DNA of 31,813 nt from a virus: positions 1-31,813 of IMG/VR virus record IMGVR_UViG_3300047564_005479, one strand, 5' to 3'. Positions 1 through 24,046 of the stretch are shown here, one piece after another. Below the pieces are notes generated by a model, which saw nothing but the letters and a program-made list of their open reading frames with translations, had not been told where the DNA came from and made no database searches. Position 1 is the stretch's first letter; each line of letters opens with the position of its first letter. Both the position numbers and the translations under genes were made by a program.

Positions 1-126
1 TCTTCTGGCTCTTCAGGAACAAGCGGAAGTTCCGGTAGCAGTGGAACAAGTGGTACATCAGGATCTTCTGGTTCTTCTGGCTCTTCAGGAACAAGCGGAA
101 GTTCCGGTAGCAGTGGAACAAGTGGT
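1..126 (+). repeat. Gly-Ser/Thr triplet repeat with 54-bp duplicated unit
   Basis: A 54-bp unit at 1-54 recurs perfectly at 73-126, separated by 18 bases of similar sequence. Translated, it gives SSG and TSG triplets with Gly at every third residue, like a collagen pattern but with no proline. The array continues upstream of the window, so the total copy number is unknown. Confidence 0.9.
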
Positions 127-2781
127 AGTCTTACATTGTCCGGCACAACAGATAATGGCGTAATTACATTAAATGGATCTGCTCCTAATGCAACAGTAGA
201 AAGCAATTTAACTTTTAATGGATCTGTATTGTATGTAAATGGTAGTGTTGGTGTAGGAACAAGTAGTCCTGACTGTATTTTAAATATAAATGGAGGTTCT
301 TTATCAACAACATTAAATTCAACATTAACATTAGCTAATTTTCAAAGCAGTAATAGTAATGCATCTTATTTGAGAATAATAGAAAAACGTTTTTCAGCTG
401 GTTCTGATTGGACAACAGCAAGTACAAAAATTCAAAAAACAACTGATGTTACTGATCAAGCTTATATTGAGTTTAATCCTAATGGTGGAAGTTATGGATT
501 GGCATTTGGAGCAGGAACTGCCTCTGAAGCAATGCGAATTATAAATGGAGGCAATGTAGGTATCGGCACAACAAGTCCATTAACTAAATTGGATGTTAGA
601 AGCGGTTCAATTACTGCGGGCACTAATACTTCTACTTTAGGAAGTACAATAATTGCTGGTTATTATACTGATGGAAATCTGACTGTATTAGGAAGTGAAT
701 ATAGCAGCGGCGGTCCATTTTTAGGATATGCTGTTACACCTTCTTTGGCATCAAGTGCTGCATTTTTAAGTTCTACAAGCATAAATGTTGCTAGATCTGC
801 ATATATTCAAGATGGGCCAACTCATCGTTGGTATATCGGCGCTACACAAACTGTTTCTATCGGATCTTCCGCTACGCTTAGTGAAGTGATGCGTTTAAAT
901 AATAATGGAAATTTAGGTATAGGAACAACAAGTCCAACAGAATTACTGCATCTTTCGTCAGCAGGTACAGCAAAATTAAAAATTACAGCTGACACTGATA
1001 ACGTTACGGAAACAGATATTGCTGGTATAGATATGTCACAAGATGGTGGCATTACTACTGCTACATTAACTTTAGATAGTGCAAATAGTTTAGTTATTGG
1101 TGTTAATTCTACAACTTCTCCACATATTTATTTAGGTACAAGATCTGATGGCACAAGTTTTGTAGCATCAACAGATGCTAAATTAACTATATTAAATAAT
1201 GGTAATGTTGGAATAGGTACAACTAGTCCGGTGTCTGTTTTAACAATAATGGCACCGGCTGGAACTGCATTTGGAGATCTAACAGCTGCGAATAGCAATC
1301 TTCCAATTTATTCTAAGGTATATGCAGGAGCGAGTAGTGCTACTAGAAATATTTTTTATGGACATGTTTATACAGCAAATGCTTCCGCGTATGCTGATTT
1401 ACAAATTTTGTTATCAAATACGAATGATAGTTCGGCAAGAGCTGGTTCATTTGTATTAACACAAAATGGATCTTTAGCTTTTAGAAATTCTGCATCTGAA
1501 ATTACAACAGCTGATACTCTTGCTGGTACTGAAAAAATGCGCATAGATACTAACGGTAATGTTGGAATAGGTACAACAAGTCCATCTGGTATTTTACATT
1601 TACAAAGTTCAGCATCAACAACATTATTAAGAGTAGATAATACTAATCCTTCTAATGATGCGGCAATCTTATTAACGGATAGTAACAATTCAACAGGCGA
1701 AGGTTTTAGAGTAACGTACGATTCAAGTGTTGGTGATACTTATTTTAATAATATATTCAATGCAACTTCTGCGTTTCATTTCCAAAGAGGAGATTTTGGT
1801 TCTGGCACAGAGTTGATGCTTATAAAGTCTGATGGTAATGTTGGTATAGGAACAAGCAATCCGGCAGCAACATTACATACAACTGGTGCGGTTAGATTTG
1901 CTACATTGCCATCTGGAACTGGGGCTAATGTTGTATATATAAATTCAAATGGTGATTTAACAAGTGGTGCTGCACCTGCTGGTGGTGGTAGCAGCGTTAC
2001 TTTAAGCGGACCAAATAATGGCATCGTAACAAGAGATGGAGCTGCTGGCACAACATTAATTGCTGAAACAAATTATGAATTTAATGCTAGCACAAGATTG
2101 ATGTACTTGAGTGGTCAGATTGGAATTAATTTTACTGGAAATACTGGTTCAGCAACTCCATTGGAAATACATGGTACTGGAGGAGAATTATTCTCTATTG
2201 ATGATGATTTAAGTTCGTCATTAATGTCTGTAAATACCATTGCTGGTTTACCAGTATTTGAAGCTTTTGCTGATTCAACTGTACAAATGGGTCAATATGG
2301 TAGTGGTGATTTTATAATTACTGGCAATAAAGTTGGTATTGGAACAACAAATCCCCCTTACAGATTTACTGTTAGTGGTGATATTAGTTTTCCTGCATTA
2401 AGTAGCGGCGCGAATACAAGATTATTAAGTATAGCTAGTAGTGATGGTAAATTATCTTATCAATCTCCATATTTTACTGTTTCTGGATATGCTGGAACTG
2501 GTTTGACTTTAGCTTTAGATCATGCAGGAGAATATATAAGAACAACTTCAGCAACTGCTGTTACAATTACTGTACCACCTCAAAGTTCTGTAACTTGGAT
2601 CGATGATGCAGAAATTATGTTTGAACAAGCTGGAGCTGGACAAATTACATTTGCCACTGGAGCTGGTGTTACAATAAATAGCAGCGAAACACTCAAAACT
2701 CAAAAACAATATTCTGTGTGCGCTTTAAAAAGAGCATCATCTAATACTTGGACTTTATTTGGAGAAAGAGAGCTAGTTTAA
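1..2781 (+). CDS. Tail fibre protein with GIGTTSP repeats, 5'-partial
   Basis: The reading frame is already open at base 1, so the true start lies outside the window; the first internal ATG (136) is not a credible start because the same low-complexity pattern runs through it. The visible protein begins with Gly-Ser/Thr triplets (bases 1-126). It then carries seven copies of a GIGTTSP-like motif (codons starting near 247, 556, 913, 1207, 1561, 1840 and 2332), each usually preceded by NGN and followed by a short beta-strand. The C-terminal 90 residues (TITVPP ... ITFATGAGVTI ... WTLFGERELV) have the usual finish of a phage fibre or host-recognition domain. No transmembrane segment or catalytic motif is seen. 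The likely role is a trimeric adhesin at the virion surface that contacts the host. The repeat pattern is directly visible; the fibre role is inferred from family resemblance and from the fibre-associated gene that follows. Confidence 0.8.
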   Translation, partial: SSGSSGTSGSSGSSGTSGTSGSSGSSGSSGTSGSSGSSGTSGSLTLSGTTDNGVITLNGSAPNATVESNLTFNGSVLYVNGSVGVGTSSPDCILNINGGSLSTTLNSTLTLANFQSSNSNASYLRIIEKRFSAGSDWTTASTKIQKTTDVTDQAYIEFNPNGGSYGLAFGAGTASEAMRIINGGNVGIGTTSPLTKLDVRSGSITAGTNTSTLGSTIIAGYYTDGNLTVLGSEYSSGGPFLGYAVTPSLASSAAFLSSTSINVARSAYIQDGPTHRWYIGATQTVSIGSSATLSEVMRLNNNGNLGIGTTSPTELLHLSSAGTAKLKITADTDNVTETDIAGIDMSQDGGITTATLTLDSANSLVIGVNSTTSPHIYLGTRSDGTSFVASTDAKLTILNNGNVGIGTTSPVSVLTIMAPAGTAFGDLTAANSNLPIYSKVYAGASSATRNIFYGHVYTANASAYADLQILLSNTNDSSARAGSFVLTQNGSLAFRNSASEITTADTLAGTEKMRIDTNGNVGIGTTSPSGILHLQSSASTTLLRVDNTNPSNDAAILLTDSNNSTGEGFRVTYDSSVGDTYFNNIFNATSAFHFQRGDFGSGTELMLIKSDGNVGIGTSNPAATLHTTGAVRFATLPSGTGANVVYINSNGDLTSGAAPAGGGSSVTLSGPNNGIVTRDGAAGTTLIAETNYEFNASTRLMYLSGQIGINFTGNTGSATPLEIHGTGGELFSIDDDLSSSLMSVNTIAGLPVFEAFADSTVQMGQYGSGDFIITGNKVGIGTTNPPYRFTVSGDISFPALSSGANTRLLSIASSDGKLSYQSPYFTVSGYAGTGLTLALDHAGEYIRTTSATAVTITVPPQSSVTWIDDAEIMFEQAGAGQITFATGAGVTINSSETLKTQKQYSVCALKRASSNTWTLFGERELV

Positions 2782-2783
2782 TA

Positions 2784-2789
2784 TATAAT
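2784..2789 (+). promoter_or_regulatory. TATAAT box 7 bases before ATG
   Basis: TATAAT is followed by 7 bases and then the ATG at 2797. There is no Shine-Dalgarno. Several other genes in the window have the same spacing. The intergenic sequence is very AT-rich, so a chance match is possible. Confidence 0.3.
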
Positions 2790-2796
2790 ATTATAT

Positions 2797-3306
2797 ATGG
2801 AAACGTTTTTATATAATCTAAATACTCAAAAAAGAGAAGGAGAAATTAGAAATGGCCGCTATCTTGTTGATGGCAAGCCGGGAGTTTTGCCAGATTTTTT
2901 AGTTGAATTAGAAATCGAAAGACGTTCTTCGCCAACATACGATTCTTCAACTCAAACACTTGAGCATACTTCTTATGCTGATTTAAATAATCTGAAATGG
3001 ATAGAAGAAGATTATATTAGAAATTTAACCCAAGAAGAAATTGAACAAAGATTACCAAAAGCTCCTGATAGTTGTACTCCGAGACAATTAAGAATTGCTT
3101 TGATTAAAAATGGTATTTCTCTTTCTGTCGTAGAAAATTATATAAATAATATACAAGACAACGAACAAAAAGAAATAGCACTTGCTGAATGGGAGTATGC
3201 ACTTGATATTAAAAAAGATCATCCTTTGTTGTTAGCTATAGCAAATAATTTAAATCTAGATCAGAAAAAGATTGATGAAATTTTTACTTTAGCAGTAACA
3301 CTATAA
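2797..3306 (+). CDS. Small fibre-associated protein (tail fibre assembly-like)
   Basis: The product is 169 residues. The N-terminal part (METFLYNLNTQKREGEI ... GVLPDFLVELE) resembles the strand-rich start of small proteins found after phage fibre genes. The C-terminal part follows a common phage pattern: CTPRQLRIALIKNGISL, then a WEYA segment, then HPLLLAIANNLNLDQKKIDEIF. That helical module is widespread in proteins encoded just downstream of tail fibres. It follows the fibre gene by 15 bases, which supports a role in fibre folding, assembly or attachment. No enzymatic motif is visible. The function is inferred from position and family pattern; the pattern itself is clear. Confidence 0.6.
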   Translation: METFLYNLNTQKREGEIRNGRYLVDGKPGVLPDFLVELEIERRSSPTYDSSTQTLEHTSYADLNNLKWIEEDYIRNLTQEEIEQRLPKAPDSCTPRQLRIALIKNGISLSVVENYINNIQDNEQKEIALAEWEYALDIKKDHPLLLAIANNLNLDQKKIDEIFTLAVTL

Positions 3307-3310
3307 TTTT

Positions 3311-5359
3311 ATGAGTTTGCCGTTATCAGCGCCAGTTAGAAGAAATAAACCAAAAAGAAATGTAAATTTAATTGCCGCCTCAAATAATGGAAATTCTTCT
3401 TACGCTATACAAAAAAATGGCCGTGCTTGGGCTTGGGGACTTAATACTTCCGGTCAACTTGGCGATAACACTATCGTTAGCAAACTTACTCCAGTGTCTG
3501 TGCTGGGTGCAGTAAAAACTTTTTGTAAGATAGCAGGAGGAAGTAATCATTCTCTCGCAATCGATAAAAATGGCCGTTCTTGGGCTTGGGGAGTTAATAC
3601 TTTCGGTCAACTTGGCAATAACACTGTTATTAGTCAACGTACACCAGTGTCTGTGCTGGGTGCAGTAAAAACTTTTTGTCAGATAGCAGGAGGAAGTAAT
3701 CATTCTCTCGCAATTGATAAAAATGGCCGTGCTTGGGCTTGGGGACTTAATACTTCCGGTCAACTTGGCAATAACACTGTTATTAGTCAACGTACTCCAG
3801 TGTCTGTGCTGGGTGCAGTAAAAACTTTTTGTCAGATAGCAGGAGGAAGTAATCATTCTCTCGCAATTGATAAAAATGGCCGCGCTTGGGCTTGGGGGTA
3901 TAATATTTTCGGTCAACTTGGCAATAACACTGTTATTAGTCAACGTACTCCAGTGTCTGTGCTGGGTGCAGTAAAAACTTTTTGTCAGATAGCAGGAGGA
4001 AGTTTTTATTCTCTCGCAATCGATAAAAATGGCCGTGCTTGGGCTTGGGGAGTTAATGATAACGGTCAACTTGGCAATAACACTGTTATTAGTCAACGTA
4101 CTCCAGTGTCTGTGCTGGGTGCAGTAAAAACTTTTTGTCAGATAGCAGGAGGAAGTAATCATTCTCTCGCAATTGATAAAAATGGCCGTGCTTGGGCTTG
4201 GGGGTATAATATTTTCGGTCAACTTGGCGACGATAAACAATCTATTGAACGACGGACACCATCTTCTATAGTCGGTAACAGAAAAACTTTTTGTCAGATA
4301 GCGGGAGGAAGTAATCATTCTCTCGCAATTGATAAAAATGGCCGTGCTTGGGCTTGGGGAGCTAATCTTTACGGTAATCTTGGCGATAACACTATCGTTA
4401 GCAAACTTACTCCAGTATCTGTGCTGGGTGCAGTAAAAACTTTTTGTAAGATAGCGGCAGGAGATATTCATTCTCTCGCAATTGATAAAAATGGCCGCGC
4501 TTGGGGTTGGGGGAGTAATATTTTCGGTGAACTTGGCGATAACACTATCGTTAGCAAACTTACTCCAGTGTCTGTGCTGGGTGCAGTAAAAACTTTTTGT
4601 CAGATAGCTGGAGGAGGTAATCATTCTCTCGCAATCGATAAAAATGGCCGCGCTTGGGCTTGGGGGTATAATGAATACGGTCAACTTGGCGATAACACTA
4701 TCGTTAGCAAACTTACTCCAGTATCTGTGCTGGGTGCAGTAAAAACTTTTTGTCAGATAGCAGGAGGAGGTAATCATTCTCTCGCAATTGATAAAAATGG
4801 CCGCGCTTGGGCTTGGGGGCTAAATGATTTCGATGAATCTGGTGGTCAACTTGGCAATAACACTGTTATTAGTCAACGTACACCAGTGTCTGTGCTGGGT
4901 GCAGTAAAAACTTTTTGTCAGATAGCAGGAGGAGGTAATCATTCTCTCGCAATTGATAAAAATGGCCGTGCTTGGGCTTGGGGAGTTAATTCTAACGGTG
5001 AACTTGGCAATAACACTACTGATAACCAACTTACTCCAGTATCTGTGTTGGGTGCAGTAAAAACTTTTTGTAAGATAGCGGCAGGAGATATTCATTCTCT
5101 CGCAATTGATAAAAATGGCCGCGCTTGGGCTTGGGGGTATAATACTTTCGGTCAACTTGGTAATACTACTGAAGTTGACCAACTCACTCCAGTGTCTGTG
5201 CTGGGTGCAGTAAAAACTTTTTGTCAGATAGCAGGAGGAAGTTTTCATTCTCTCGCAATCGATAAAAATGGCCGCGCTTGGGGTTGGGGGAGTAATAGCA
5301 ATGGTGCGCTTGGTCAAGATATAATAAATTATACTCCTATTAGAATTTGTAATATTTAA
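3311..5359 (+). CDS. RCC1-repeat protein, probable beta-propeller receptor-binding protein
   Basis: The product is 682 residues. After a short basic N-terminus (PVRRNKPKRN) it is made entirely of RCC1-type repeats of 51 residues, each with the core HSLAIDKNGRAWAWG, then a variable loop, GQLG, TPVSVLGAVKTFC. I count 13 WAWG/WGWG cores. A classic RCC1 propeller has seven blades, so 13 repeats would fit about two propellers, or a longer helical array. There is no signal peptide or membrane segment. Frameworks are almost identical, while the loop after WAWG and a short HS-preceding segment vary, which suits a ligand-binding surface. It lies between a fibre-assembly-like gene and a glycosyltransferase, so a role at the virion surface is likely. 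Only four bases separate it from the previous gene, and no Shine-Dalgarno is seen. The repeat family is certain; binding function is inferred. Confidence 0.85.
   Translation: MSLPLSAPVRRNKPKRNVNLIAASNNGNSSYAIQKNGRAWAWGLNTSGQLGDNTIVSKLTPVSVLGAVKTFCKIAGGSNHSLAIDKNGRSWAWGVNTFGQLGNNTVISQRTPVSVLGAVKTFCQIAGGSNHSLAIDKNGRAWAWGLNTSGQLGNNTVISQRTPVSVLGAVKTFCQIAGGSNHSLAIDKNGRAWAWGYNIFGQLGNNTVISQRTPVSVLGAVKTFCQIAGGSFYSLAIDKNGRAWAWGVNDNGQLGNNTVISQRTPVSVLGAVKTFCQIAGGSNHSLAIDKNGRAWAWGYNIFGQLGDDKQSIERRTPSSIVGNRKTFCQIAGGSNHSLAIDKNGRAWAWGANLYGNLGDNTIVSKLTPVSVLGAVKTFCKIAAGDIHSLAIDKNGRAWGWGSNIFGELGDNTIVSKLTPVSVLGAVKTFCQIAGGGNHSLAIDKNGRAWAWGYNEYGQLGDNTIVSKLTPVSVLGAVKTFCQIAGGGNHSLAIDKNGRAWAWGLNDFDESGGQLGNNTVISQRTPVSVLGAVKTFCQIAGGGNHSLAIDKNGRAWAWGVNSNGELGNNTTDNQLTPVSVLGAVKTFCKIAAGDIHSLAIDKNGRAWAWGYNTFGQLGNTTEVDQLTPVSVLGAVKTFCQIAGGSFHSLAIDKNGRAWGWGSNSNGALGQDIINYTPIRICNI
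3400..5340 (+). repeat. Tandem 153-bp RCC1 coding repeats (about 13 units)
   Basis: Near-identical 153-bp units recur in frame: the GCT/TCT of the (A/S)WAWG core falls at 3425, 3578 and 3731, exactly 153 apart. Two alternative sub-sequences, coding DNTIVSK and NNTVISQ, alternate in blocks along the array. Unit 6 carries a divergent loop (DDKQSIERR). Unit 10 has an insertion (NDFDESG). Confidence 0.92.
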
Positions 5360-5420
5360 TTTTATTATTTTTTCTCTATAAAATTCTTTAGCAATTTTTA
5401 ATTTTTGAATTATTATATGA

Positions 5421-5426
5421 TGTAAC
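5421..5426 (+). promoter_or_regulatory. Weak TGTAAC box upstream of glycosyltransferase
   Basis: TGTAAC lies 11 bases before the ATG at 5438, in the 78-base gap after the RCC1 gene. It resembles the TGTAAT word seen before other genes, but base and spacing deviate. The gap contains no Shine-Dalgarno and no terminator that I can see. Confidence 0.2.
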
Positions 5427-5437
5427 ATATCGACATC

Positions 5438-7039
5438 ATGATCAAAAAGAAAAATCTCGTTTTAACAATATCCATTGGTGATTATTATAATGAACTTTCA
5501 AAATTGACGTTGCCGTCTATACAGGCTTACGCAGAAAAAATTGGTGCTGATTTTTTAAACATCACAGAATTCAATAAATATTACATTACCCAAAAATGGA
5601 ATAAGTTTCATATTCATGAACTTTTAAATCAATATCACAGAATTATTTATTTTGATATTGATATTTTAATAAGAGATGATTGCCCAAATCTTTTTGATAT
5701 TGTGCCCGAAAATAAACTTGGAATGTTTAATGAAGGTAGATATGCGCCAAGATTTGAATATCTTGAGCAAGCTTCAGAATATTACAAGGAACCATTAAAG
5801 AAATGGAATGGTAAGTTTTATAATTCTGGTGTGATGGTTATTTCTCGTATTCACAAACAGATTTTTGCATTACCTCGCGGCATTGATTTTGTTGAAACAG
5901 ATCAGCCATATATAAATCTCAGAATATTAAATGATAAAATCGAAATGCATGATTTGCATTATGATTATAATAGAATGGATATTCTTGATAAATTTTGCGG
6001 TATTTCTCGCTTGAATTCTTATGTCGTGCATTATGCAGGCGCTCCAAAAGATATTCAATCAGATGTCGTAGCTAAAGATATTGATCAGTGGGAAAATGAT
6101 AAATTGGATGGATATAAGTATAAGCGCAATATTGTTATATCTGTTACAGCCGGTATGGGTGATCAATTATGTTCTGAGCCAGCGATTAGATATACACAAA
6201 AACTATATCCAGATGCAAATATTACAGTTGTATCTCATTTTCCAAGATTATTTGAACATTTAAGTTGTCCTGTTGTAAATTTTGATCAATGGAAAGGAAT
6301 AAATGATTCAGTTATTATCATGAATACTTGTCCTGATGATGAAGTATCAGAACATAAAATGTCGCATGTTTTATTTCATCCTACTGATTTTGCTTCAATG
6401 TCAATGATTAAAAGAACTATCCCGCATTCAGAAAAAACAATACAATTAAAATTAGAAGCAGACGACGTATCTTATATTCTTGATTTATTAAAAGATAAAA
6501 ATAAAGAAAAGCCTACAGTTATTGTACACGCAGGAAAATGGTGGCCTTCTAAAACTCTGCCTAAAGAATGGTGGCGAGAAATTGTAAATAAACTATCAGA
6601 AAAATTAACTGTTATATTGATTGGTAAAACAATAGACGAAAAACAAGGATATTTAAATATTGATGTACCGAAAGATGGATATGATTTGCGCGATCTTACT
6701 ACGCTTGGTCAAATGTTTGCTTTGATATCATTATCTCGTTGCCTTGTCACTAATGATTCTTCGCCATTACATATAGCAGGAGCATTTGATAATTGGATTG
6801 TTACATTTCCAACATGCAAGCATGAAGATCATATCTTGCCTTATCGAAATGGCACTCAATCTTATAAAACTAAAGCTTTGAGAAAAGATTTATTATTAGA
6901 TGAGCTTGAAATACGTCATACGGAATTCAAGCATGATACTATTGATCTTATTCCAAAAGGAAAAACATTATACGATTATTTGCCAGACGTTGATACTGTC
7001 GTAAAAGAAGTATTAGAGATTTACGAGAATGACAAATGA
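5438..7039 (+). CDS. Two-domain glycosyltransferase (GT8-like + GT9-like)
   Basis: The product is 533 residues with two apparent transferase domains. Residues 5-205 look like a GT8/GT-A fold: the metal-binding motif YFDIDILI has D73 and D75, NSGVM lies at 129-133, DQPYIN near 155, and a late His in VVHYAG (H198) matches the usual third metal ligand. Residues about 230-520 look like a GT9 heptosyltransferase-type GT-B fold: TAGMGDQL near 237-244, HAGKWWPSK at 364-372, and LVTNDSSPLHIAGA around 437-449 (N439, D440). It would transfer sugar from a nucleotide-sugar donor; donor and acceptor are unknown. It overlaps the following methyltransferase-like gene by four bases (ATGA), so the two are probably translated together. 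Position among fibre and lectin genes suggests modification of virion proteins or of a host surface glycan. Fold calls are family-based; the target is inference. Confidence 0.78.
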   Translation: MIKKKNLVLTISIGDYYNELSKLTLPSIQAYAEKIGADFLNITEFNKYYITQKWNKFHIHELLNQYHRIIYFDIDILIRDDCPNLFDIVPENKLGMFNEGRYAPRFEYLEQASEYYKEPLKKWNGKFYNSGVMVISRIHKQIFALPRGIDFVETDQPYINLRILNDKIEMHDLHYDYNRMDILDKFCGISRLNSYVVHYAGAPKDIQSDVVAKDIDQWENDKLDGYKYKRNIVISVTAGMGDQLCSEPAIRYTQKLYPDANITVVSHFPRLFEHLSCPVVNFDQWKGINDSVIIMNTCPDDEVSEHKMSHVLFHPTDFASMSMIKRTIPHSEKTIQLKLEADDVSYILDLLKDKNKEKPTVIVHAGKWWPSKTLPKEWWREIVNKLSEKLTVILIGKTIDEKQGYLNIDVPKDGYDLRDLTTLGQMFALISLSRCLVTNDSSPLHIAGAFDNWIVTFPTCKHEDHILPYRNGTQSYKTKALRKDLLLDELEIRHTEFKHDTIDLIPKGKTLYDYLPDVDTVVKEVLEIYENDK

Positions 7040-7575
7040 ATAAATTTAATTCTTTTCGCCCACTCATGCACCAACATGAGTATAAATTTATAGAAAAATA
7101 TTTAAATAAAAATGATATTCTTTTAGAATTTGGAAGCGGTAACAGTACTATTTATTTTTCTGGACTAGTCAAAAATGTAATTTCTATTGAACATGATGTT
7201 GATTGGATAAATAATATCAAAAAAATTATTGATGCTTATAGTATTAAAAATATAGAACTAATACATCAACCAGCTCATTCTCCAGATCCTAAGCCTTGTA
7301 GATATGAACAGTTTAAAGATTATATTCATATTCCAGAAACAAGAAAATTAAACTTCACAAAAGTTTTAATTGATGGAAGAGCGCGAAAGTATTGCGCGAA
7401 ATATCTTTGGAACATAATTGATGAAAATGCTATTGTTTTTATTCATGACTTTAATCGTTCAGATTATCAAATGTCATTAAAGTATTATGATTTGATTGAA
7501 ATAATTACTGATGGACAAGGCATTGCCGCATTGAAGAAGAAAAATGAAGTAGTTAAAGAAGATTTCTATTATTGA
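7036..7575 (+). CDS. Class I SAM-dependent methyltransferase-like protein
   Basis: The product is 179 residues. The N-terminal half has a Rossmann-type motif I, LLEFGSGNSTIYFS (residues about 29-42), followed by a beta2 acidic end, VISIEHDVDW. Later strands read KVLIDGRARKYCA and IVFIHDFNRSDY. This order fits a small class I methyltransferase of the kind found in glycan and secondary-metabolite clusters. The start overlaps the glycosyltransferase stop in an ATGA arrangement, which implies translational coupling and a joint role, for example methylating a sugar added by its partner. The substrate is unknown. It is shorter than many full methyltransferases but covers the core fold. Loss of catalytic activity cannot be excluded from sequence alone. 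Confidence 0.65.
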   Translation: MNKFNSFRPLMHQHEYKFIEKYLNKNDILLEFGSGNSTIYFSGLVKNVISIEHDVDWINNIKKIIDAYSIKNIELIHQPAHSPDPKPCRYEQFKDYIHIPETRKLNFTKVLIDGRARKYCAKYLWNIIDENAIVFIHDFNRSDYQMSLKYYDLIEIITDGQGIAALKKKNEVVKEDFYY

Positions 7576-7609
7576 AAAAGATTACGATGCTAAAAAATAC
7601 TTTAAGTAG

Positions 7610-7615
7610 TGTAAT
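7610..7615 (+). promoter_or_regulatory. AGTGTAAT-type late promoter candidate
   Basis: TGTAAT within AGTGTAATTTAATAT lies 7 bases before the ATG at 7623. There is no -35 match at 16-18 bases upstream and no Shine-Dalgarno. The same word precedes four other genes in the window. Confidence 0.45.
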
Positions 7616-7622
7616 TTAATAT

Positions 7623-8363: not shown

Positions 8364-8369
8364 TGTAAT
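8364..8369 (+). promoter_or_regulatory. AGTGTAAT box before second LamG gene
   Basis: TGTAAT immediately follows the stop codon of the first LamG gene and lies 16 bases before the ATG at 8386, a longer distance than at the other sites. An AT tract, TATTTTATATATTTT, fills the gap. Confidence 0.35.
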
Positions 8370-8385
8370 ATATTTTATATATTTT

Positions 8386-9156: not shown

Positions 9157-9162
9157 TTTTTT

Positions 9163-9885: not shown

Positions 9886-9912
9886 TATTTACTTCTATCT
9901 ATTTTTATATAG

Positions 9913-9918
9913 TGTAAT
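9913..9918 (+). promoter_or_regulatory. AGTGTAAT-type late promoter candidate
   Basis: TGTAAT in ATAGTGTAATTTAAATATT lies 9 bases before the ATG at 9928. The 42-base gap after the third LamG gene contains no terminator hairpin that I can see. Confidence 0.42.
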
Positions 9919-9927
9919 TTAAATATT

Positions 9928-10473
9928 ATGGAGACAGTTTATATAGAAACTCAGCCAACATCTGAGAAAAATGTTGCAAGTTTAAAAGCAGTATTAAGTA
10001 ATTTTGATTTTATGGGTCCACTCCGTGGGCCTTGCTTGTGGGTTGAAATGATTAATCCAAATGGTTTACCGTTTGATGGTCAATATGTACGTATTGACGG
10101 TGACGATTGGCAAAATTGGCCATGCGATCAAACAGATGAAGAAGATTATAAATATCTTTCAAATGTTATATTACGTAAAGTTGGTTTAGATTGGAGACAT
10201 TATTTAAAATTTACTCAGCATCCTGAATTTAATGTTTATACTGGTGTTGCTGATTATACATTTAGCTGTGCTGTTGAATCTTATCCAACCGGATCTTGTT
10301 CTTATCAATGGAATATAAATGGAACAGAAATAGTCGGCGCGACATCTGATACTTATACTGTTTCTAATGCTGTAGAATCACAAACAGGAGTTTATTCAGT
10401 GGTTGTTTCCAATAACGAATTTACTATTACTGGAAATGGATATTTGTATACATCTGGTTCTGTTTATATCTAA
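9928..10473 (+). CDS. Structural protein with C-terminal Ig-like domain
   Basis: The product is 181 residues. Residues 1-95 are an unrecognised domain rich in aromatic and acidic residues (NPNGLPFDGQYVRIDGDDW, EDYKYLSNVILRKVGLDWRHY). From about residue 98 the sequence reads like an immunoglobulin I-set domain: FSCAVE, SYQWNINGTEIVGAT, TYTVSNAVESQTGVYSVVVSNN. The canonical first Cys and the Trp are present, while the second Cys position (after the G-Y core) is Val, so the usual disulphide is absent. Ig-like domains are common accessory modules on phage capsid and tail proteins and are thought to help surface attachment. It follows the LamG cluster and is probably also exposed on the virion. 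The N-terminal domain is unassigned. Confidence 0.6.
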   Translation: METVYIETQPTSEKNVASLKAVLSNFDFMGPLRGPCLWVEMINPNGLPFDGQYVRIDGDDWQNWPCDQTDEEDYKYLSNVILRKVGLDWRHYLKFTQHPEFNVYTGVADYTFSCAVESYPTGSCSYQWNINGTEIVGATSDTYTVSNAVESQTGVYSVVVSNNEFTITGNGYLYTSGSVYI

Positions 10474-16123: not shown

Positions 16124-19100
16124 ATGGCAGTCCAAATCAATGTAGCAGCAAATCAAGCCGCCTTAGTTCAATCAATTCAAGCTGGCGTACAAGCTTACAA
16201 TCAACGATTTGCAAATCAAAATCAGGTCAATCTACAAGTTAATGCTAGAGGTTTTTCTCAACCTCTTGGTAGAATTACAGGTGATGTTAAGGATTTCGAG
16301 GCTGCATTAGCTGCTTCTAATGCGCGTGTTATCGCGTTCGGTGCGTCAACTGCTGTATTAGGTGGTGTTTTACGTGGTTTTAGAAGCATTGCTGAAGTTA
16401 CAGTTGAAGTTGAAAAGAATTTAGCTGATATTAATCGTGTTTTCGGATTAACTACCAAAGAATTACAAAAATTTAGTACAGATTTATTTAATGTTAGTAA
16501 ACAGACAGCAAGTTCTTTTGGCGATGCATCTAAAGCTGCTCTAGAATTTTCACGTCAAGGTGTTAAAGCTGAAGAGGTGTTACAAAGAACAGCAGACGCA
16601 ATGACTCTTGCCAGATTGGCAGGCATGAATGTAAATAATGCTATCGAAGCATTAACTGCTACAGTAAATGGTTTCCAAGCTACAGGAATAACGACAACAC
16701 AAGTTTTAAATAAATTAGTTGCGGTTGAACAAAGCTATGCAGTAAGTGCCGGTGATTTAGCTGAAGCTCTTTCTAGAACAGGTCTAGCAGCTCAAGAAGC
16801 TGGTGTTAATATCGATCAATTAAACGCGCTTGTTACAGCGGCGCAGGAAAAAACTGCGCGTGGTGGTGCTGTTATCGGTAACGCATTAAAAACAATTTTT
16901 ACAAGATTACAGCGTACTGAAACGCTTGATCAGTTAGAAGCTTTTAATATCGGAGTTCGCGATATTCAAGGTAATATTTTACCAGCCGTACAAATATTAC
17001 AAAATTTTGCAGGCGCTTACAATAATTTAGCTGATTCACAAAGAGCGCAATTATCTGAACAAGTTGCAGGTGTTTATCAAGTAAACATATTAAAAGCAAT
17101 TATTGGAGATTTAAATAATAAACAAGGAGCTTATGCTGGAGCTTTACAAAAAGGCGCGATGGCAACAAATGAAGCTCAAGTCGCCGCTGCTAAATTAAAT
17201 CAAACATTAGATGCTTTATTAAGCCAAACTAGCACAGTTGCTCAACAGTTCGCCAATAATGTTGGTAAAGTAACATTTGAACCTTTAGCTAAATATACGG
17301 CAGAATCATTTAAATCATTATTTGAGAATTTAAATGAGATTCTTGAAGGTGAAGGCGTAGGTTCTACTTTTGCAAATGGTTTATTAAAAGGTATTCGAAA
17401 TGTATTAGCTGGTCCCGGAGCAATTGGTGCATTTTTCGTATTATTTAAGTTAATACAAAATTCTTTTACATATCTTTCTCAAGCATTGCCTCAGATTGTT
17501 GGTATAACAACAGAAACACAAAACAGAAAAAATATTGAACAAGCTATTTTGCAAATCATGCAGCAACAAGGACCAGTTGCCCAAGCTTTGGCTGGTCAAA
17601 TGGGTAATCAAACTGCTCAAGCGCAGTTATTATTACAACTAGCAAGACAACAAACAGCAGAATATCAAAGACAACAAGCATTAGTTGCTGCTTTAGCTCC
17701 AGCATTATCCGCTCAAGGTGTTAGCGCAAGAGGTCAACAAGGATTAAGAGTTACAAGAAGTGGTGGATATATACCTAAAGAAGCAAAACTTCAAGAAACC
17801 ATAGGAGCGCTTGCTGGAGGTTATACGCCCGGTCAAGTAATTAAATCTCCTGTTGGTGGAGTAATGAACTCGGCAGAACAAGTAAAATATATGCCAGGTT
17901 TTGCTCAACCATTTATAAATCCACCAGCCAATTCTGATGCAGGAAGAACTCATAGACGCAATTCTATAAATAGAACAGGTGTTGATCCATATATGAATAA
18001 TGGATTTATACCTAATTTTTATATAGATTCAACAGATAAAAAGAGATTTCAATCTGCTAAAATAATTGAGGGTAATTTGTTTGAAAAAGAATTGTATACT
18101 AAATTGGATACTGGAACAGAACCACCCGGTGCAACATTAGATTTTCCAACAGGAAAATTAGAATCAGTTAGATCAAAAAATAGACAAACGACTTTATCTG
18201 TTGGGATTGATGATCAAACTTTATATGGTGATGCAAAGTTATCTTTGAATTCATCAAATATAACCAGCATGATCTCTAAATATATTAGAGCTGGAAATAA
18301 ATTTATTATAGGAGATACTGTTTTTGATGATAAAAATTATTCTATTTTGTATAAATATGGTCCACCTGATAATTTATTAACGAACAAAACTAGAAAATTA
18401 TCTTCTTTATTAAAACATAATCCTTCTTTAATTCATAACATTGGTCATCGATTAATTGATATGAGAACTGGAAATAGATTGAATAAAGCAGGTGAAAATA
18501 CAAAAATTGGTTTGACGTTTTTTGGAGACAAAGTAGATATAGGGCAAACATCTGCTTCAGGATTTATACCTAATCTAGCATCATCACAATTACCAGCTGA
18601 ATACCGCAATCCAATAACAGGTAAATTGAATAACCCTAAAATTGCAGCTGCAATAAGAATGGGTAAATTAGATCCAGCTGTTGCTATGGCTGCTGGCTAT
18701 AAAACATCATCACAGTCTATACAAGAAAGAAAACAAGGAGCATTAGAAAGGGTATTGAGTTCGGGATTCAAAAAAATAGGTATTTCTGGAATTGGAATAT
18801 TACCTAGTAGCACAACAGCTTCTCAAACAAATCCATTTGCAAAAAATTTCGAACGTTTGGCGCTTGAAAAAGCAAAACAAATGTTTGCAACAAATAATAT
18901 TGTTTTTGCTTCAAATTATGAAAAAGGTGGTAAAAGATTTCATGGGGCTCCAGGTAATACCAGAATCGATGCATTAGAAGATAATTTGACTGGTCCTGTT
19001 ATTGAAATGAAGTCTGGTGATACTACGCCTGATGCTAAGGTGAAAACAAAATTTACACAAGCTAAAAATGAATTAATTGAAATGTGGCACAGTGCAATGC

Positions 19101-22100
19101 CTAAAGAAAAATTAGATACTATTGTTCAAAGCATTGGTGCTCGACCTGAGTATTTATTCTATAATGCAGACAAAGAGATCAAAAGAGGAACAGAGCAAAT
19201 TATACAAGCTAGCACTGGTTTCATTCCTAATTTTGCGGCTATTGATAGAAATATTTTGCGAGATATGATTAAATTCAATATTGCAAATGCTTCTTCATCT
19301 ACTAAAGGTTTAAAAAATGTAGAATTAAGCAGAAGCGTTAGAGGAAGAGGAAAACGCTGGCAAAGTCTATCAGAACAATATAATAAAAATATTCCAGAAA
19401 ATGAAATAATAAACGCTGTTTTTGCTTCAAGATATCAAGAAACTGGTAATCCATTTTTTGAAAAACGTTTCACGCAACAAAGCATTGAAGATACAATAGA
19501 GCGTCATCAAAGTGATGTTCCTGATTTTTCTGGTGGAGAAAATTTTAAAAAATCTCCATTTGTTTCTACAAGTTTAAAGAAAAGTTCAGCTTTTGCACAT
19601 GCATCTATAACAGGCGGTGAAATAATAAAACAACAAAAAGTTAGACTTTCTAGGATTTTAAATAAACAAGCGTATTCTTTATTGATAGATAAATATGGAG
19701 AAGAAAAAGTTAAAGAAACAATTTTAAATTTATCAAAATTAAAAGGCGGAAAAGGTATTGGATTTGATGTTAATGACTTTCTTAAAACTCATTATGATAT
19801 AATTCGTTCAAAAGGAAAAGTTGCATATCGCGAATCTGAAAATGAAGTAGCTATTTTAAGTAAAGGTTTTATACCTAATTTTGCTGCTGATTATATAAAT
19901 CAAGTAATGAATCTTGAATCTAATATGAGCGGCAATAAAGCTGTATTAGATACAAAAAGCGGACCTTTTCCATTTATACGTAATAGTTCTCAGCCTAATT
20001 TTGCAGCGGCTATTTCTGATCATGGTGGAATGAACAAGGCTTTAAATGATTCTTATAAAAATCAAGTTGCTGCTGGATTGATGAATAAAGGATTCATTCC
20101 CAATTTTGCACCATTTGATATAACAGGAACAAGTTTACAAAGATCTGGAGGTGGAGCAGTTAGTCATAAAAAAATTAATAAAGCAATTAATGATTATATA
20201 AACAGTATTGATTTAAGTACTACTAGTAACAAAGATATTAGTGATGCTTTATTAACTAAATTACTGCCACAATTTAAGTTAAATCAACAAAGTTTCAATG
20301 AAGTAAGAAGAGCGGCTTTAGATTATGCTAAAGCTCAAAAAGCAGCCGCACAACAAACACAACAACAGACTCAACAAGCATCACAAGGAAAAGGTGGATT
20401 ATTTCCTACATTTAAAAAACTAGGTAATATTGGTTCTAATATAGGAAAAGTTATAAATAGTCCATTGGGTGCAATGATCACATCTCAGCTAGGATCGGCA
20501 ATCGCTGGCCAATTTGCTTTTGGAGATAAGAAAAGATATGAAATGACAGAAAATCAAAGAAAAATGCAAAGTTTTGCTAATACAGGTGTTACCGCTATAT
20601 CTACAGGCGCATTTATTGGAACGGCTGCATTAGGGCCTGGATATGGAACAGCAATTGGTGCTGCTGCTGGTGGTTTGTTTGCATTTATTGAAGCAACTAA
20701 AGCAGCTAAATTAAGTTTATCAGAATTTAGAGATTCAATTTCTGAAAACGCTGAAAAACAAACTTCTATAATTTCTGATTATAAAGATAATTTAGAAAAA
20801 CTAACAAAAGCCACAGAATCTGGAGATAAAAATTTAATAGATAAAGCTACAAGAGATTTATCTGCATCTTTAAGTGGATTAGCTGCCAAAAATTTAACAT
20901 CAAATATTCAAGGTAAATCTGTTGAAGATCTTGATATTCTAATTTCTGATATAAACAAAAAAGCCGCTATGTCAACAAATGTTTTATCTGCTACTGAGAA
21001 AATTGGTACTGGTGCTAAAGAAGTTTCATTTTTTGATAAGTTTAAACAGCAAGCTGGGGAAGCTATTATTAATTTAACAAATATAGTAATTGATACATTT
21101 AAATTTATAGGTAATGGTTTTGTAAAAATAGGAACTGGAATAGTTGAGATGTTTTCTAGTTTGTTAACAAATATAAAGCCTGCTTGGGAAAATATGATGG
21201 ATTTTTTGGGTTCTTCGATTTCTATGTTGGGTTTGAAAATTCAAGCGTTTTATAATGATGTTTTAAGTGGTATAGGATTTAATCGTGATGCAGAAATAGA
21301 ACAAACGAAATCAGCAATTGATATTTATGCGCAAATATATAAAGAATCTGCAAATAAAATATCTGATTCTATAAAAAAAGCTTTAGGTTCTGCGTCTGAG
21401 CTGGCTATTAATTTTGATATAGGAGAATTTAGTAGTAAATTTTTACAAGGTTATGGTGAATTTTTTGGAGTTACAGGCCAAAGAAAAATACAGCAGTATA
21501 ATATGGAAGATATTATTGCTAATTATGTGAAAGAAGGAGGCGCTGGAACATCAGCATTTTATAAAAGGATTTTTAATTTAGGAGAAAAAGGTAAAAAGGG
21601 TCAATTAATGGATGAGCAATTGTATAATGTTATAAATGAAATAGCTGTTTCTCAAGCTTCGAAAGATAGAGCGGCAGCGATTGAAAATTTACGTAGTATG
21701 TTAGTTGATCGAGGAATCAGTGGTGAAGATATTGATGTGCTAATATATCAAATTGAAAAATTTTCCGAAAAAAGCAACTATAAAGGACAATTTATTCTTA
21801 GTGAATTTAAAAATTTTATTTCGAGTTTAATGAGTGTGGATGCTACTTCAAAAGAAATGGCTACGACTCAAGTTAATGCAATTAAAAATTTTACTAAAAT
21901 AAGAAACGATATTGATACTTCTATTAGAGATTATGTTCAAAGATCAGAAATGAATCAAATTGCAATCAACGGAGCAATTGAAAGACAGAAGGTATTGTTA
22001 TCTGAAAGATCAAGAATTGCAGAAGTTTTTGGAAGACCTTTTGAATCTATTAATATTAAACAGCAAGAAAGAATATTGGATATAAATAGATCTTATCAAA

Positions 22101-24046
22101 GCGATTTAGCTAAAAGCAGTGAGAAAACTACTCAATTATTAGATACTTTATCAAAACAATCAACTTATCAAAGTTTAGAAAGCATTCAACAATTGCAGCA
22201 AGCTTTTGTATCTGAAGATTATACACCTGAACAAAGATTGCAATTAATACAACAAAGTTTACAAGCTACAACAGTAGATAAAGAAGGAAAAGCGCAAAAT
22301 TTAATAAATTTTCAAAATGCTTCAGATAGACAAAAATTTCTTGATTTATTAAAAGCTGAATCCGACTCGTTGGATAAAAGAAAAGCTCAAAACGCTGAAG
22401 ATATTAAAACAGCTAAATTAATATATGATCAAGAAGTTAAACGCGCTCAAGAAGCAAGAGATTTTAATTTTCAATTAAGAGCAGGGGTTTTATCTTTATC
22501 TGATGAGGCTGATTTATTATTAGGTCAATTAGGTAGAAAAATACCAAGTGCTTTTGCTGATGGCATGACTAATGCACTTATGCAAGTTGCTAAAGGAACA
22601 CAATCTATAGGCGATGCATTTAAAGATATGGCTATAAATTTTGGTCAAATGTTAATGCAAGAAGTTATGCGAGCAGCAATAGGCAAAGTTTTGGGAAATG
22701 TTCTGACTCCAATGTTTAGTCAAACAGGAGGAATCGTTGGTAAACAAAATGGTGGTATTATTCGTGCTGAAAATGGCGCTTATATACCTGGAAATAGAAC
22801 TGGAGATAGAAATTTAGCGATGTTGGAAGATGGCGAATATGTATTAAATAGAGAAGCGGTTGCAGCGATTGGGGTAAGCAATTTAGATAGTTTGAATTAT
22901 GGAATGGCACCTCGTTTTCAAAGTGGTGGCGGTTTCGGTTTGGCTGCTGAACAAGCTTTAGTTGAAGATGAATTAAAATATTCAGGAATGTTAATGGAAA
23001 GTGGTCGAGCTAATAAACCTATAGATATTGAAGATTATACTTCTTATGCATATGCTGAAGATACGTATTTTAAAGATATGCGTGAAAAAGCAATACAAGC
23101 TGAACAAGAAAGAATACAAAAAGTTTATCAAGACAAGGTTAAAAACTTACAATTGATGACATCGATTATGGGGGCAGTTGGTAGTATTTCATTATCTGTT
23201 GGTATGGCGGGAGTCGCTGCTGCTTCCGCAGCGGGTGAAAGCGCAAAAGGAGCCCAAGCGGGAGCAGCTGGAGCCAGTACAGCGATTAGTTCTGGGGCTG
23301 AAGTTGGTAAACAAACAATTACAGCTGCAACTCCAGAGGTGCAAAAAGGATTAGATCAAGCAATGAAAGGTAGTAATTATGCATTAGGAAGATTTCTTAG
23401 TAAAAATAGCAATGAAATATTAGTCAATGGTCAATCTTTAAAAGGTCTTGCTGTGGGAAGAGATATAGCTAAATATGGATATATGGTGGATCCAAATAAG
23501 TTTGGCAAAGTAACGGGATTATCTGGTTATGCTAACATTCAGTCTATTTTTGGACAAACTCGTAATCAAAATATGTTTGGTAATTTGTTTCCAAATGTTT
23601 TAAGTTCTGGTAGAGATGTGATTTCATCAAATATGCCAAGGCGTCAAACTGGAGGTTTAGTTGGTTATCAATCTGGTGGTTTTATACCATATGGTTCTAG
23701 AATATCTGATAATGTTCCACGTTATATGTCTGGTGGTATTAATTTGATGAATAATAATATGAATAAAAAATATATGATGATGCCATCTGTTGGTATGCAG
23801 TCTGGCGGTTCAACGAGCGGAGTATCTAATACAACAAATAATAGCACAAATTCAACAAATATTGCTATCAATATTGATAAATCAGGAACAACTGTAATTG
23901 GAGAATCTGGTAATAATTATAGCAATAACGATTATCAATTTAGCAAAGACTTGGCAAGAGTTGTTGCTAAAATCGCAGATTCAAGAATTAGTGATGCAAA
24001 AAGATCAGGCGGTTCTTTAGGTAGAGGCTCTTCTTACTCTTCATGA
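16124..24046 (+). CDS. TP901-type tape measure protein with embedded enzyme-like domains
   Basis: The product is 2,640 residues. The N-terminal region (about 105-340) has the TP901-type tape measure core: a SKQTASSFGDASKAALEFSRQG stretch, SAGDLAEALSRTGLAAQEAG, ARGGAVIGNALKTIFTRLQ. Hydrophobic segments occur near 430-445, 1490-1530 and 2345-2385, as expected for a protein that contacts the host membrane. Residues 627-1329 are punctuated by GFIPNF(A) motifs that bracket domains resembling two PD-(D/E)XK nucleases and an ADP-ribosyltransferase (listed separately). After 1330 come Gln/Ala-rich and helical stretches, then AYIPGNRTGD ... LEDGEYVLNREAVAAIG (2219-2250), a common tape measure C-terminal module, and a Gly/Asn/Ser-rich tail. 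It sets tail length and is released on DNA entry. Lambda gpH (853 residues) makes a 135-nm tail; full helical use of this length would give about 400 nm, but the embedded domains probably do not count. The stop overlaps the next start (ATGA). Confidence 0.92.
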   Translation: MAVQINVAANQAALVQSIQAGVQAYNQRFANQNQVNLQVNARGFSQPLGRITGDVKDFEAALAASNARVIAFGASTAVLGGVLRGFRSIAEVTVEVEKNLADINRVFGLTTKELQKFSTDLFNVSKQTASSFGDASKAALEFSRQGVKAEEVLQRTADAMTLARLAGMNVNNAIEALTATVNGFQATGITTTQVLNKLVAVEQSYAVSAGDLAEALSRTGLAAQEAGVNIDQLNALVTAAQEKTARGGAVIGNALKTIFTRLQRTETLDQLEAFNIGVRDIQGNILPAVQILQNFAGAYNNLADSQRAQLSEQVAGVYQVNILKAIIGDLNNKQGAYAGALQKGAMATNEAQVAAAKLNQTLDALLSQTSTVAQQFANNVGKVTFEPLAKYTAESFKSLFENLNEILEGEGVGSTFANGLLKGIRNVLAGPGAIGAFFVLFKLIQNSFTYLSQALPQIVGITTETQNRKNIEQAILQIMQQQGPVAQALAGQMGNQTAQAQLLLQLARQQTAEYQRQQALVAALAPALSAQGVSARGQQGLRVTRSGGYIPKEAKLQETIGALAGGYTPGQVIKSPVGGVMNSAEQVKYMPGFAQPFINPPANSDAGRTHRRNSINRTGVDPYMNNGFIPNFYIDSTDKKRFQSAKIIEGNLFEKELYTKLDTGTEPPGATLDFPTGKLESVRSKNRQTTLSVGIDDQTLYGDAKLSLNSSNITSMISKYIRAGNKFIIGDTVFDDKNYSILYKYGPPDNLLTNKTRKLSSLLKHNPSLIHNIGHRLIDMRTGNRLNKAGENTKIGLTFFGDKVDIGQTSASGFIPNLASSQLPAEYRNPITGKLNNPKIAAAIRMGKLDPAVAMAAGYKTSSQSIQERKQGALERVLSSGFKKIGISGIGILPSSTTASQTNPFAKNFERLALEKAKQMFATNNIVFASNYEKGGKRFHGAPGNTRIDALEDNLTGPVIEMKSGDTTPDAKVKTKFTQAKNELIEMWHSAMPKEKLDTIVQSIGARPEYLFYNADKEIKRGTEQIIQASTGFIPNFAAIDRNILRDMIKFNIANASSSTKGLKNVELSRSVRGRGKRWQSLSEQYNKNIPENEIINAVFASRYQETGNPFFEKRFTQQSIEDTIERHQSDVPDFSGGENFKKSPFVSTSLKKSSAFAHASITGGEIIKQQKVRLSRILNKQAYSLLIDKYGEEKVKETILNLSKLKGGKGIGFDVNDFLKTHYDIIRSKGKVAYRESENEVAILSKGFIPNFAADYINQVMNLESNMSGNKAVLDTKSGPFPFIRNSSQPNFAAAISDHGGMNKALNDSYKNQVAAGLMNKGFIPNFAPFDITGTSLQRSGGGAVSHKKINKAINDYINSIDLSTTSNKDISDALLTKLLPQFKLNQQSFNEVRRAALDYAKAQKAAAQQTQQQTQQASQGKGGLFPTFKKLGNIGSNIGKVINSPLGAMITSQLGSAIAGQFAFGDKKRYEMTENQRKMQSFANTGVTAISTGAFIGTAALGPGYGTAIGAAAGGLFAFIEATKAAKLSLSEFRDSISENAEKQTSIISDYKDNLEKLTKATESGDKNLIDKATRDLSASLSGLAAKNLTSNIQGKSVEDLDILISDINKKAAMSTNVLSATEKIGTGAKEVSFFDKFKQQAGEAIINLTNIVIDTFKFIGNGFVKIGTGIVEMFSSLLTNIKPAWENMMDFLGSSISMLGLKIQAFYNDVLSGIGFNRDAEIEQTKSAIDIYAQIYKESANKISDSIKKALGSASELAINFDIGEFSSKFLQGYGEFFGVTGQRKIQQYNMEDIIANYVKEGGAGTSAFYKRIFNLGEKGKKGQLMDEQLYNVINEIAVSQASKDRAAAIENLRSMLVDRGISGEDIDVLIYQIEKFSEKSNYKGQFILSEFKNFISSLMSVDATSKEMATTQVNAIKNFTKIRNDIDTSIRDYVQRSEMNQIAINGAIERQKVLLSERSRIAEVFGRPFESINIKQQERILDINRSYQSDLAKSSEKTTQLLDTLSKQSTYQSLESIQQLQQAFVSEDYTPEQRLQLIQQSLQATTVDKEGKAQNLINFQNASDRQKFLDLLKAESDSLDKRKAQNAEDIKTAKLIYDQEVKRAQEARDFNFQLRAGVLSLSDEADLLLGQLGRKIPSAFADGMTNALMQVAKGTQSIGDAFKDMAINFGQMLMQEVMRAAIGKVLGNVLTPMFSQTGGIVGKQNGGIIRAENGAYIPGNRTGDRNLAMLEDGEYVLNREAVAAIGVSNLDSLNYGMAPRFQSGGGFGLAAEQALVEDELKYSGMLMESGRANKPIDIEDYTSYAYAEDTYFKDMREKAIQAEQERIQKVYQDKVKNLQLMTSIMGAVGSISLSVGMAGVAAASAAGESAKGAQAGAAGASTAISSGAEVGKQTITAATPEVQKGLDQAMKGSNYALGRFLSKNSNEILVNGQSLKGLAVGRDIAKYGYMVDPNKFGKVTGLSGYANIQSIFGQTRNQNMFGNLFPNVLSSGRDVISSNMPRRQTGGLVGYQSGGFIPYGSRISDNVPRYMSGGINLMNNNMNKKYMMMPSVGMQSGGSTSGVSNTTNNSTNSTNIAINIDKSGTTVIGESGNNYSNNDYQFSKDLARVVAKIADSRISDAKRSGGSLGRGSSYSS
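18041..18559 (+). other. Domain: possible PD-(D/E)XK nuclease fold in tape measure (first)
   Basis: Residues about 640-812. The motif order fits the fold: helix with EGNLFEKEL (E654), then ATLDF (D673), then YGDAKLS (D703, K705 as the (D/E)XK). It ends at GFIPNL. The match is weaker than that of the next domain: the spacing of 30 residues between D673 and D703 is long, and no homology search was possible. It could instead be a degenerate or non-catalytic relative. Confidence 0.4.
18821..19216 (+). other. Domain: PD-(D/E)XK nuclease-like in tape measure (second)
   Basis: Residues about 900-1031. A helix with NFERLALEKAKQMF (E910) precedes TRIDAL (D949), then VIEMKSGD (E961, K963), then a helix with Gln in FTQAKNEL (Q979), and a strand EYLFYNA. 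E, D, E-X-K and Q in this order and spacing are the full active-site set of the PD-(D/E)XK superfamily. The domain ends at GFIPNFA (1032). It would cut DNA or RNA; the target is unknown. Confidence 0.68.
19238..19864 (+). other. Domain: ADP-ribosyltransferase-like (R-S-E type) in tape measure
   Basis: Residues about 1039-1247. The three marks of R-S-E ADP-ribosyltransferases occur in order: a basic ELSRSVRGRG (candidate R1070 or R1073), SPFVSTSLKKSSAFAHA with STS at 1148-1150, and YRESENEVAILSKG with E1239-x-E1241 before a hydrophobic strand. The region between STS and E-x-E is beta-rich, as in the fold. It ends at GFIPNFA (1248). It would transfer ADP-ribose from NAD to a host protein, if active. 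Confidence 0.62.

Follow-up and report, generated by a model that had tools for sequence, protein, structure and literature searches.

The closest described parallel to the phage locus reported here is provided by the Podospora het-d/het-e/hnwd WD40 sensors, for which the consulted extracts of PMC1805685, PMC2873952 and PMC12222747 describe near-identical blades, concerted evolution, two seven-blade propellers in a model and hypervariable residues on the interaction surface. Active het alleles usually carry 11 repeats plus 3 cryptic ones according to the same extracts, and repeat number is called highly variable in that of PMC1805685. Short-read assemblies of these genes are unreliable, as they may be for the array described here. 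Highly repetitive propellers with near-identical blades have been described in the RCC1/BLIP-II lineage, with a few viral members and with a warning on assembly, and a 15-blade WD40 protein has been modelled as 7+8 (extracts of PMC9218822). Among phages, three phrog_4219 proteins were detected by mass spectrometry in particles of Escherichia phage W70 (PMC11370258, in extract), an RCC1/BLIP-II domain protein was found in GAP32 particles (PMC5259590, in extract) and phAPEC6 particles contain proteins listed as DNA condensation protein (PMC7247149, in extract), which are taken to be the RCC1-like ones.

The phage array resembles each of these systems in part. With the RCC1/BLIP-II superfamily (RCC1, UVR8, HERC RLDs, BLIP-II) it shares the repeat signature, a unit of ∼51 residues and, in the model, the seven-bladed fold at residues 322-682, BLIP-II being matched with a Z of about 29. 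Unlike that superfamily, it combines much higher internal DNA identity and predicted tandem rings with a phage tail-region location. Compared with the highly repetitive propellers in the extracts of PMC9218822, it adds reticulation within the unit and, in related phages, a blade number held at 7, 14 or 21. Its variable loops are predicted to share one face, in parallel with the het-d/het-e interaction surface; however, the fungal proteins as described in the extracts are WD40 immune receptors whereas the phage protein consists of RCC1 repeats, in which Pfam detected no NLR domain, and it is therefore an analogue only. The W70, GAP32 and phAPEC6 proteins are separate polypeptides of 30–43 kDa, and the extracts of PMC11370258, PMC5259590 and PMC7247149 do not describe homogenised double-propeller arrays. 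A phage propeller, the phiKZ gp131 C-terminal domain (PDB 4gbf), is among the structural matches (Z 18.3), with 10% identity, 272 residues and an rmsd of 4.6. Titles and abstract openings among the literature matches listed mention neither homogenised RCC1 arrays as phage adhesins nor a blade number held at multiples of seven; RCC1 text in the extracts of PMC12906663, PMC10218006 and PMC5723332 denotes strain or gene codes and is irrelevant.

The window, the whole stretch of 31,813 bases analysed from IMG/VR record IMGVR_UViG_3300047564_005479, is the tail region of an uncultivated tailed phage. Its left part encodes, in order on the plus strand, a collagen-like tail fibre protein (1..2781, the 5' end lying beyond the window; Pfam Collagen E 2.4e-6, PHROG tail fiber protein E 1.1e-21), a small conserved gene (2797..3306; phrog_6034 E 1.4e-19) present in 26 loci, repeat contig fetches counted, the RCC1-type propeller gene (3311..5359, 682 aa, 13 units) and a GT8 + GT9 glycosyltransferase (5438..7039, Pfam), which is a conserved neighbour. 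These are followed by three LamG/ConA-like lectin genes at 7623-8363 (Pfam Laminin_G_3 E 2.1e-12), 8353-9156 (E 9.4e-4, below the curated cut-off) and 9163-9885 (E 9e-12), and by an Ig-like domain protein (9928..10473; Pfam Ig_3 E 4.4e-5, below cut-off; PHROG Hoc-like head decoration E 1.5e-7). A tape measure protein (16124..24046, plus strand; PHROG E 2.7e-46, Pfam PhageMin_Tail E 6.2e-27) marks the tail region, minor tail genes lie close to the right end, and a tRNA search of the window found none. Four minus-strand genes at 11072-14285, inside the tail region, have no Pfam or PHROG match; two of them (11072-12325 and 12384-13244) have protein relatives at ∼40–44% in loci of the L006-L014 type and at 94–99% in the sibling locus L005. 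The glycosyltransferase of this sibling is 98% identical to that of the window, and its record ends inside its array. DNA of the lectin gene at 7623-8363 aligns with the sibling over 117 bases only and that at 9163-9885 has no DNA match there, indicating that the module next to the RCC1 gene is also variable. Antisense ORFs run through the array at 3380-4777 (465 aa) and 4820-5428 (202 aa), both on the minus strand, and would be explained by a repeated unit lacking a stop in that frame.

The first-pass annotation had described 13 near-identical RCC1 units carrying two alternating seven-residue alleles, and both points are borne out. Tandem Repeats Finder reports a 153-bp repeat at 3413..5297 on the plus strand (12.2 copies, 86% matches), and 13 units of the form NGR[AS]W[AG]WG start at positions 3416 to 5267 with a spacing of 51 residues except for one of 52 and one of 55. 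Pfam RCC1 matches 12 stretches at E 3.4e-136, so that the array is not a chance match; WD40_RLD, an RCC1-like domain, matches at E 3.4e-207, and the best PHROG match is phrog_4219, regulator of chromosome condensation (E 6.2e-77). The allele DNTIVSK occupies units 1 and 7-9 and NNTVISQ units 2-5 and 10, in the block order proposed, while units 11-13 carry sequences other than both alleles, a point absent from the earlier description. Unit 6 (4181..4336, plus strand) is unique, with 52 residues and a D-A loop reading GNRK instead of GAVK, and sits where fourteen-unit relatives have boundary units 7-8. Mean nucleotide identity of units 2-12 is 87.2%, the second highest of the arrays compared, after L053 (88.5%); the blades are thus nearly identical in both DNA and protein, as in highly repetitive propellers, and the longest exact repeat is 126 nt. 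Variation is not confined to positions after WAWG and before HS, as had been claimed: it falls mostly at unit columns 8-12 (end of strand A and A-B loop) and 27-42 (C-D loop, in which the seven-residue allele and the xNxx positions are both found), and to a lesser extent at columns 5, 22, 24 and 45-48.

Relatives were collected by scanning viral_contigs with the array, of which the best 80 of 128 confirmed stretches were used, and with the glycosyltransferase, giving 123 loci (L002-L124, repeat contig fetches counted). An exact search of viral_contigs with a 33-base framework stretch gave no match, and records of or near the window's own genome may be left out. The neighbourhood is conserved, an RCC1 ORF of at least four units lying upstream of the glycosyltransferase in 76 of the 93 loci having that gene (repeat fetches counted). 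Eleven of the remaining 17 have fewer than 100 bases upstream of the match and one (L030) has 465 bases containing three RCC1 units; no RCC1 sequence was found in the 1.5 kb and 0.9 kb upstream in L046 and L060 or in the 8 kb upstream in L062, L063 and L066. In a host search, 18 genome_contigs stretches matched the glycosyltransferase pattern and none was confirmed. RCC1 units were detected at 59 genome loci, where complete ORFs have 4-8, 15 or 16 units with many gaps; these arrays are too divergent for a fair unit count and are therefore of no use as a control. Other architectures were also encountered: L096 and L103 each carry six separate seven-blade RCC1 genes side by side and no single long array, and bins labelled Clostridia (L126, L130, L137, L146) contain very long ORFs with dozens of spacer-separated RCC1-type units. 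Among cultured phages, diverged RCC1 arrays are found in Synechococcus phages S-SRM01 and BUCT-ZZ01. L119 has huge adjoining ORFs at 1638-8738 and 8742-18986 in which ∼47 and 52 RCC1-type units were detected; 49 units would equal seven rings, the blades being too diverged for a safe count.

Blade number is quantised across these phages. Blades per ORF were counted with a profile of the unit and arrays were clustered at 95% identity, yielding 60 complete-array clusters including the window, drawn from the best 80 of 128 array stretches: 31 have seven blades, 24 have 14, two have 21 and three (the window, L048 and L032) have 13. Thus, 57 of the 60 are multiples of seven, although these are not 60 independent lineages as several are paralogues on the same contig (L096, L103, L120, L071, L078). 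Unadjusted counts for the 66 distinct proteins with complete arrays were 4 once, 7 in 30, 8 in two, 13 in seven, 14 in 23, 21 in two and 47 once. L098, L099 and L102 were raised by eye from 13 to 14 because diverged blades had been missed, and L103 and L096 were lowered from 8 to 7 since the eighth match was only a 17–18-residue fragment at the ORF end; L117 (6+7 with a long insert between), L119 (47 diverged units) and L061 (4 units) were dropped. Motif counts equalled profile counts in 29 of 34 arrays with a stricter motif and in 39 of 78 with a loose one, which also matches other segments. Profile scores dip at the expected meeting point of two rings: in 16 of 23 fourteen-unit arrays, a set including the near-identical pair L024/L025, unit 7 or 8 scores worst of the internal units. 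Unequal crossing-over, proposed in the first-pass annotation, is not supported in a free form by the distribution of blade numbers, which instead implies that most lasting exchange is copy-number neutral or involves a whole propeller.

The 13 blades of the window look like a double propeller minus one blade, lost through either a real deletion or short-read collapse. Collapse of a true 14-unit array, which the first-pass annotation had named as a result that would undermine its reading, could account for the number and perhaps for part of the block pattern while leaving the homogenisation real, and we regard it as quite possible, if a little short of probable. Exact repeats in the window array reach 126 nt, close to usual k-mer and read lengths, and records of at least eight distinct relatives end inside the array (L005, L020, L033, L034, L037, L041/L042, L097, L104). 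The rule of seven holding in 57 of 60 clusters points the same way, and the extract of PMC12222747 describes Illumina-based assembly of the comparable fungal genes as unreliable. In contrast, L048 (13 units) and L035 (14 units) align over 3,375 bases with one mismatch, L048 lacking exactly 153 bases. The mismatch is the junction base and the crossover lies within 5 exact bases beside it, or within a tract of 45 nt if the junction base is a sequencing error; 5 bases is too short for assembler collapse at usual k, so that single-blade changes seem real. Collapse is further opposed by the 14-unit assembly of L031, which retains a 294-nt exact repeat, and by L032, whose 13 units contain no exact repeat longer than 32 nt, suggesting that 13 units may be viable. 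Records of the same phage from differently numbered metagenomes have identical arrays (L011-L014; L017-L019, L021 and L022), indicating that turnover is not fast on that scale. Combined, collapse is possible for the number 13 while single-unit change is seen in L035/L048, and the window count should not be trusted before long reads are available.

The predicted structure is consistent with this blade arithmetic. AlphaFold modelled the window protein with a mean pLDDT of 82.1 and a pTM of 0.56, confidence being low at residues 270-330 around unit 6, and the 14-unit relative L035 with 88.3 and 0.79, a difference that is not a clean comparison as the alignments had 12 and 20 rows. The window model matches UVR8 with a Z of 58.0 and an rmsd of 1.5 over 357 residues within 322..682, structural matches beginning at about residue 322. 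On this match a complete seven-bladed second propeller is predicted at residues 322-682 (4274..5356, plus strand), preceded by a first propeller region of six units, one below seven, whose limits we infer as residues 22-321 (3374..4273, plus strand). Thus, regarding the choice between one and two propellers that had been left to structure prediction, the model provides one full seven-blade ring while the six-unit part is poorly modelled. In the L035 model HERC2 fits residues 370..708 (Z 51) and one UVR8 chain fits 385..729, whereas ten further UVR8 rows of about 356–362 residues have ends near 15-21 and 739 (Z 56–57). These ranges, which give the first and last residue only and come without coordinates, would be compatible with a first ring that the two termini close together, the second ring lying between them.

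Loop variation is distributed unequally between the two predicted faces of the ring. Each window unit forms four strands according to DSSP on the model. The geometry of a four-stranded antiparallel blade places the A-B and C-D loops together at one end, opposite the B-C and D-A loops. Mean entropy over window units 2-12 is 0.84 for A-B and 1.02 for C-D and 0 for both B-C and D-A, the deviating D-A loop of unit 6 falling in gap columns and so being uncounted. Over 51 arrays the corresponding values are 1.78 and 1.35 versus 0.69 (B-C) and 0.22 (D-A), and in 50 of the 51 the A-B and C-D loops are each more variable than both others. The variable loops would therefore share one face of the predicted ring, the other face being nearly constant in the window; across arrays this second face does vary, though less than the first. 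This comparison, together with the nearest-unit comparison below, left out near-duplicates (L020, L025, L034, L041, L043, L048, L099, L124) as well as L002-L004, L117 and L119.

The history of the units is reticulate. Units 2-12 contain 17 informative biallelic sites; of the 136 pairs that these form, 87 are incompatible under the four-gamete test, and at least 9 events are required. Linkage decays inside the unit, mean r2 falling from 0.33 within 10 bases to 0.05–0.10 beyond 50 (p=0.001), and a weaker decay remains with one site per codon (p=0.0015) or with pairs more than 10 nt apart (p=0.03). Six framework sites alone give the same picture, with 9 of 15 pairs failing and decay at p=0.03. 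These patterns indicate exchange of tracts shorter than a blade, and exchange between blades is well supported; of the recombination or gene conversion suggested earlier, exchange between units therefore stands while free unequal crossing-over does not. Recent amplification of one blade followed by point mutation, with no continuing exchange, corresponds to the model that Pereira and Lupas propose for highly repetitive propellers, those of the RCC1/BLIP-II lineage among them (extract of PMC9218822), and blocks of like neighbours (units 2-5 and 7-9) fit tandem duplication. It is nevertheless an unlikely account of this array given the four-gamete failures and within-unit decay, seen also in the framework sites alone, and given that the odd unit of L005 has window unit 6 as its nearest relative (82%), which indicates that distinct units were already present in the common ancestor.

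Exchange has been accompanied by homogenisation. Unit identity is 0.87 within the window array and 0.85 within that of the sibling L005 but 0.80 between them, so the two arrays have been homogenised separately. For each of the 11 internal window units compared, the closest unit belongs to the same array. Higher identity within than between sibling arrays, own-array neighbours and reticulation together constitute concerted evolution. Over 62 arrays, in contrast, the nearest relative is in the same array for 185 of 534 units, and strong homogenisation thus marks some arrays (the window, L053, L057, L044) but not all. Six arrays contain DNTIVSK and two contain NNTVISQ, with codons that differ array by array, suggesting that the motifs are old or convergent rather than recently transferred. 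Higher similarity at a lag of seven units, the pattern expected from whole-propeller duplication, is visible by eye in a few arrays (L078 6329-8599, L059, L017).

Comparison of loop and framework rates, suggested in the first-pass annotation, gave a divided result. In the window loop pN is 0.34 and loop pS 0.253, against a framework pS of 0.137 and pN of 0.028, and loop pN likewise exceeds framework pS in L053 (0.293 versus 0.156) and L005 (0.327 versus 0.151); this contrast is partly circular because loop columns were picked after seeing the variation in the window, a circularity of which the structure-based face comparison is free. Between the window and L005 arrays, however, loop pS (0.559) exceeds loop pN (0.402), with a framework pS of 0.268. 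The glycosyltransferases of the same pair differ by a pS of 0.124 and a pN of 0.008, and other shared genes by a pS of 0.064–0.427. Older arrays give no uniform order, their loop pN, loop pS and framework pS all being about 0.4–0.7, with either larger. Diversifying selection on the loops is thus possible.

Writing of the loop variation by a diversity-generating retroelement is extremely improbable. At columns 27, 29 and 30 variable codons often differ at their first two positions with the third conserved, as the AAY codons of a retroelement template would give. This third-base pattern comes with neither adenine bias nor a template: variation is no more frequent at consensus-A columns than elsewhere (A 13/40, C 10/27, G 13/39, T 16/47), and column 28, between variable codons, is AAT in all 13 units. 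In addition, none of 17 records, which may be fragments, has a reverse transcriptase (RVT_1) match, and no array-like DNA occurs outside the arrays in 106 of 107 loci, the exception, L002, having three weak matches.

The position of the RCC1 gene among fibre, lectin-like and Ig-like genes bears on its function. We consider it rather probable that the array encodes RCC1-type binding propellers, originally two in tandem, of an adsorption module, diversified by blade recombination and limited in number by the ring. Under this model the array would encode seven-bladed beta-propellers, the original state most likely being a tandem pair of 14 blades, and these would belong to the tailed phage's adsorption module. 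Recombination in stretches smaller than one blade would keep the framework near identical while shuffling the A-B and C-D loops, predicted to lie on one face of the ring, and ring closure would hold blade number at multiples of seven. The 13 blades of the window would then represent the 14-blade state minus one, probably from the first propeller. The variable face may bind a ligand on the host surface, loop diversity may be selected for and the protein may be carried on the virion, the window protein matching phrog_4219 (E 6.2e-77), a family for which presence in particles is reported for W70 members only. An extended form of this model, which we find tentative and somewhat doubtful, is a diversity system operating without reverse transcriptase, in which short-tract blade recombination remakes receptor-facing loops and a ring-closure filter holds 7, 14 and 21; arrays of 13 blades would then be snapshots of deletions normally removed by the filter.

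Two other roles were weighed. The propellers could form a scaffold or decoration of the virion, in which loop differences are weakly constrained and not selected for binding. An excess of loop pS over loop pN between siblings and the mixed values of older arrays fit such a role, as does the W70, GAP32 and phAPEC6 proteins being known, from the extracts, only as particle components. It is less easily reconciled with the finding that, in 50 of the 51 arrays, loop variation concentrates on a single face of the predicted ring, or with L062, in which the position upstream of the glycosyltransferase is taken by another protein, as expected of a slot for exchangeable adsorption genes, and we judge it improbable. 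This L062 protein has 639 aa, matches polysaccharide deacetylase weakly (below cut-off) and is encoded close to a collagen-like gene. A DNA-condensing or packaging function is suggested by the PHROG and record names, and the authors of PMC7247149 (phAPEC6) and PMC11370258 (W70) suggest in the extracts a role with packaged DNA and not in adsorption. For the window protein we hold this to be very improbable, as the gene sits amid fibre, lectin-like and tail genes and variable loops would be hard to explain for DNA binding; the best structural match is UVR8, although a fold match says nothing on function.

Combined, these results describe a real feature, the hypervariable repetitive propeller in a phage form, which may have a binding role and, by family precedent, may be carried on the virion. 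Within this family of arrays, a blade number off multiples of seven could serve as an assembly check, flagging likely collapse or recent deletion. If the proposed model is correct, the array would parallel, in a phage, the hypervariable WD40 sensors of fungi, and a copy-number rule set by the fold together with blade recombination would constitute a retroelement-free route to variable phage surface proteins, in which loop shuffling perhaps varies what the phage can grip.
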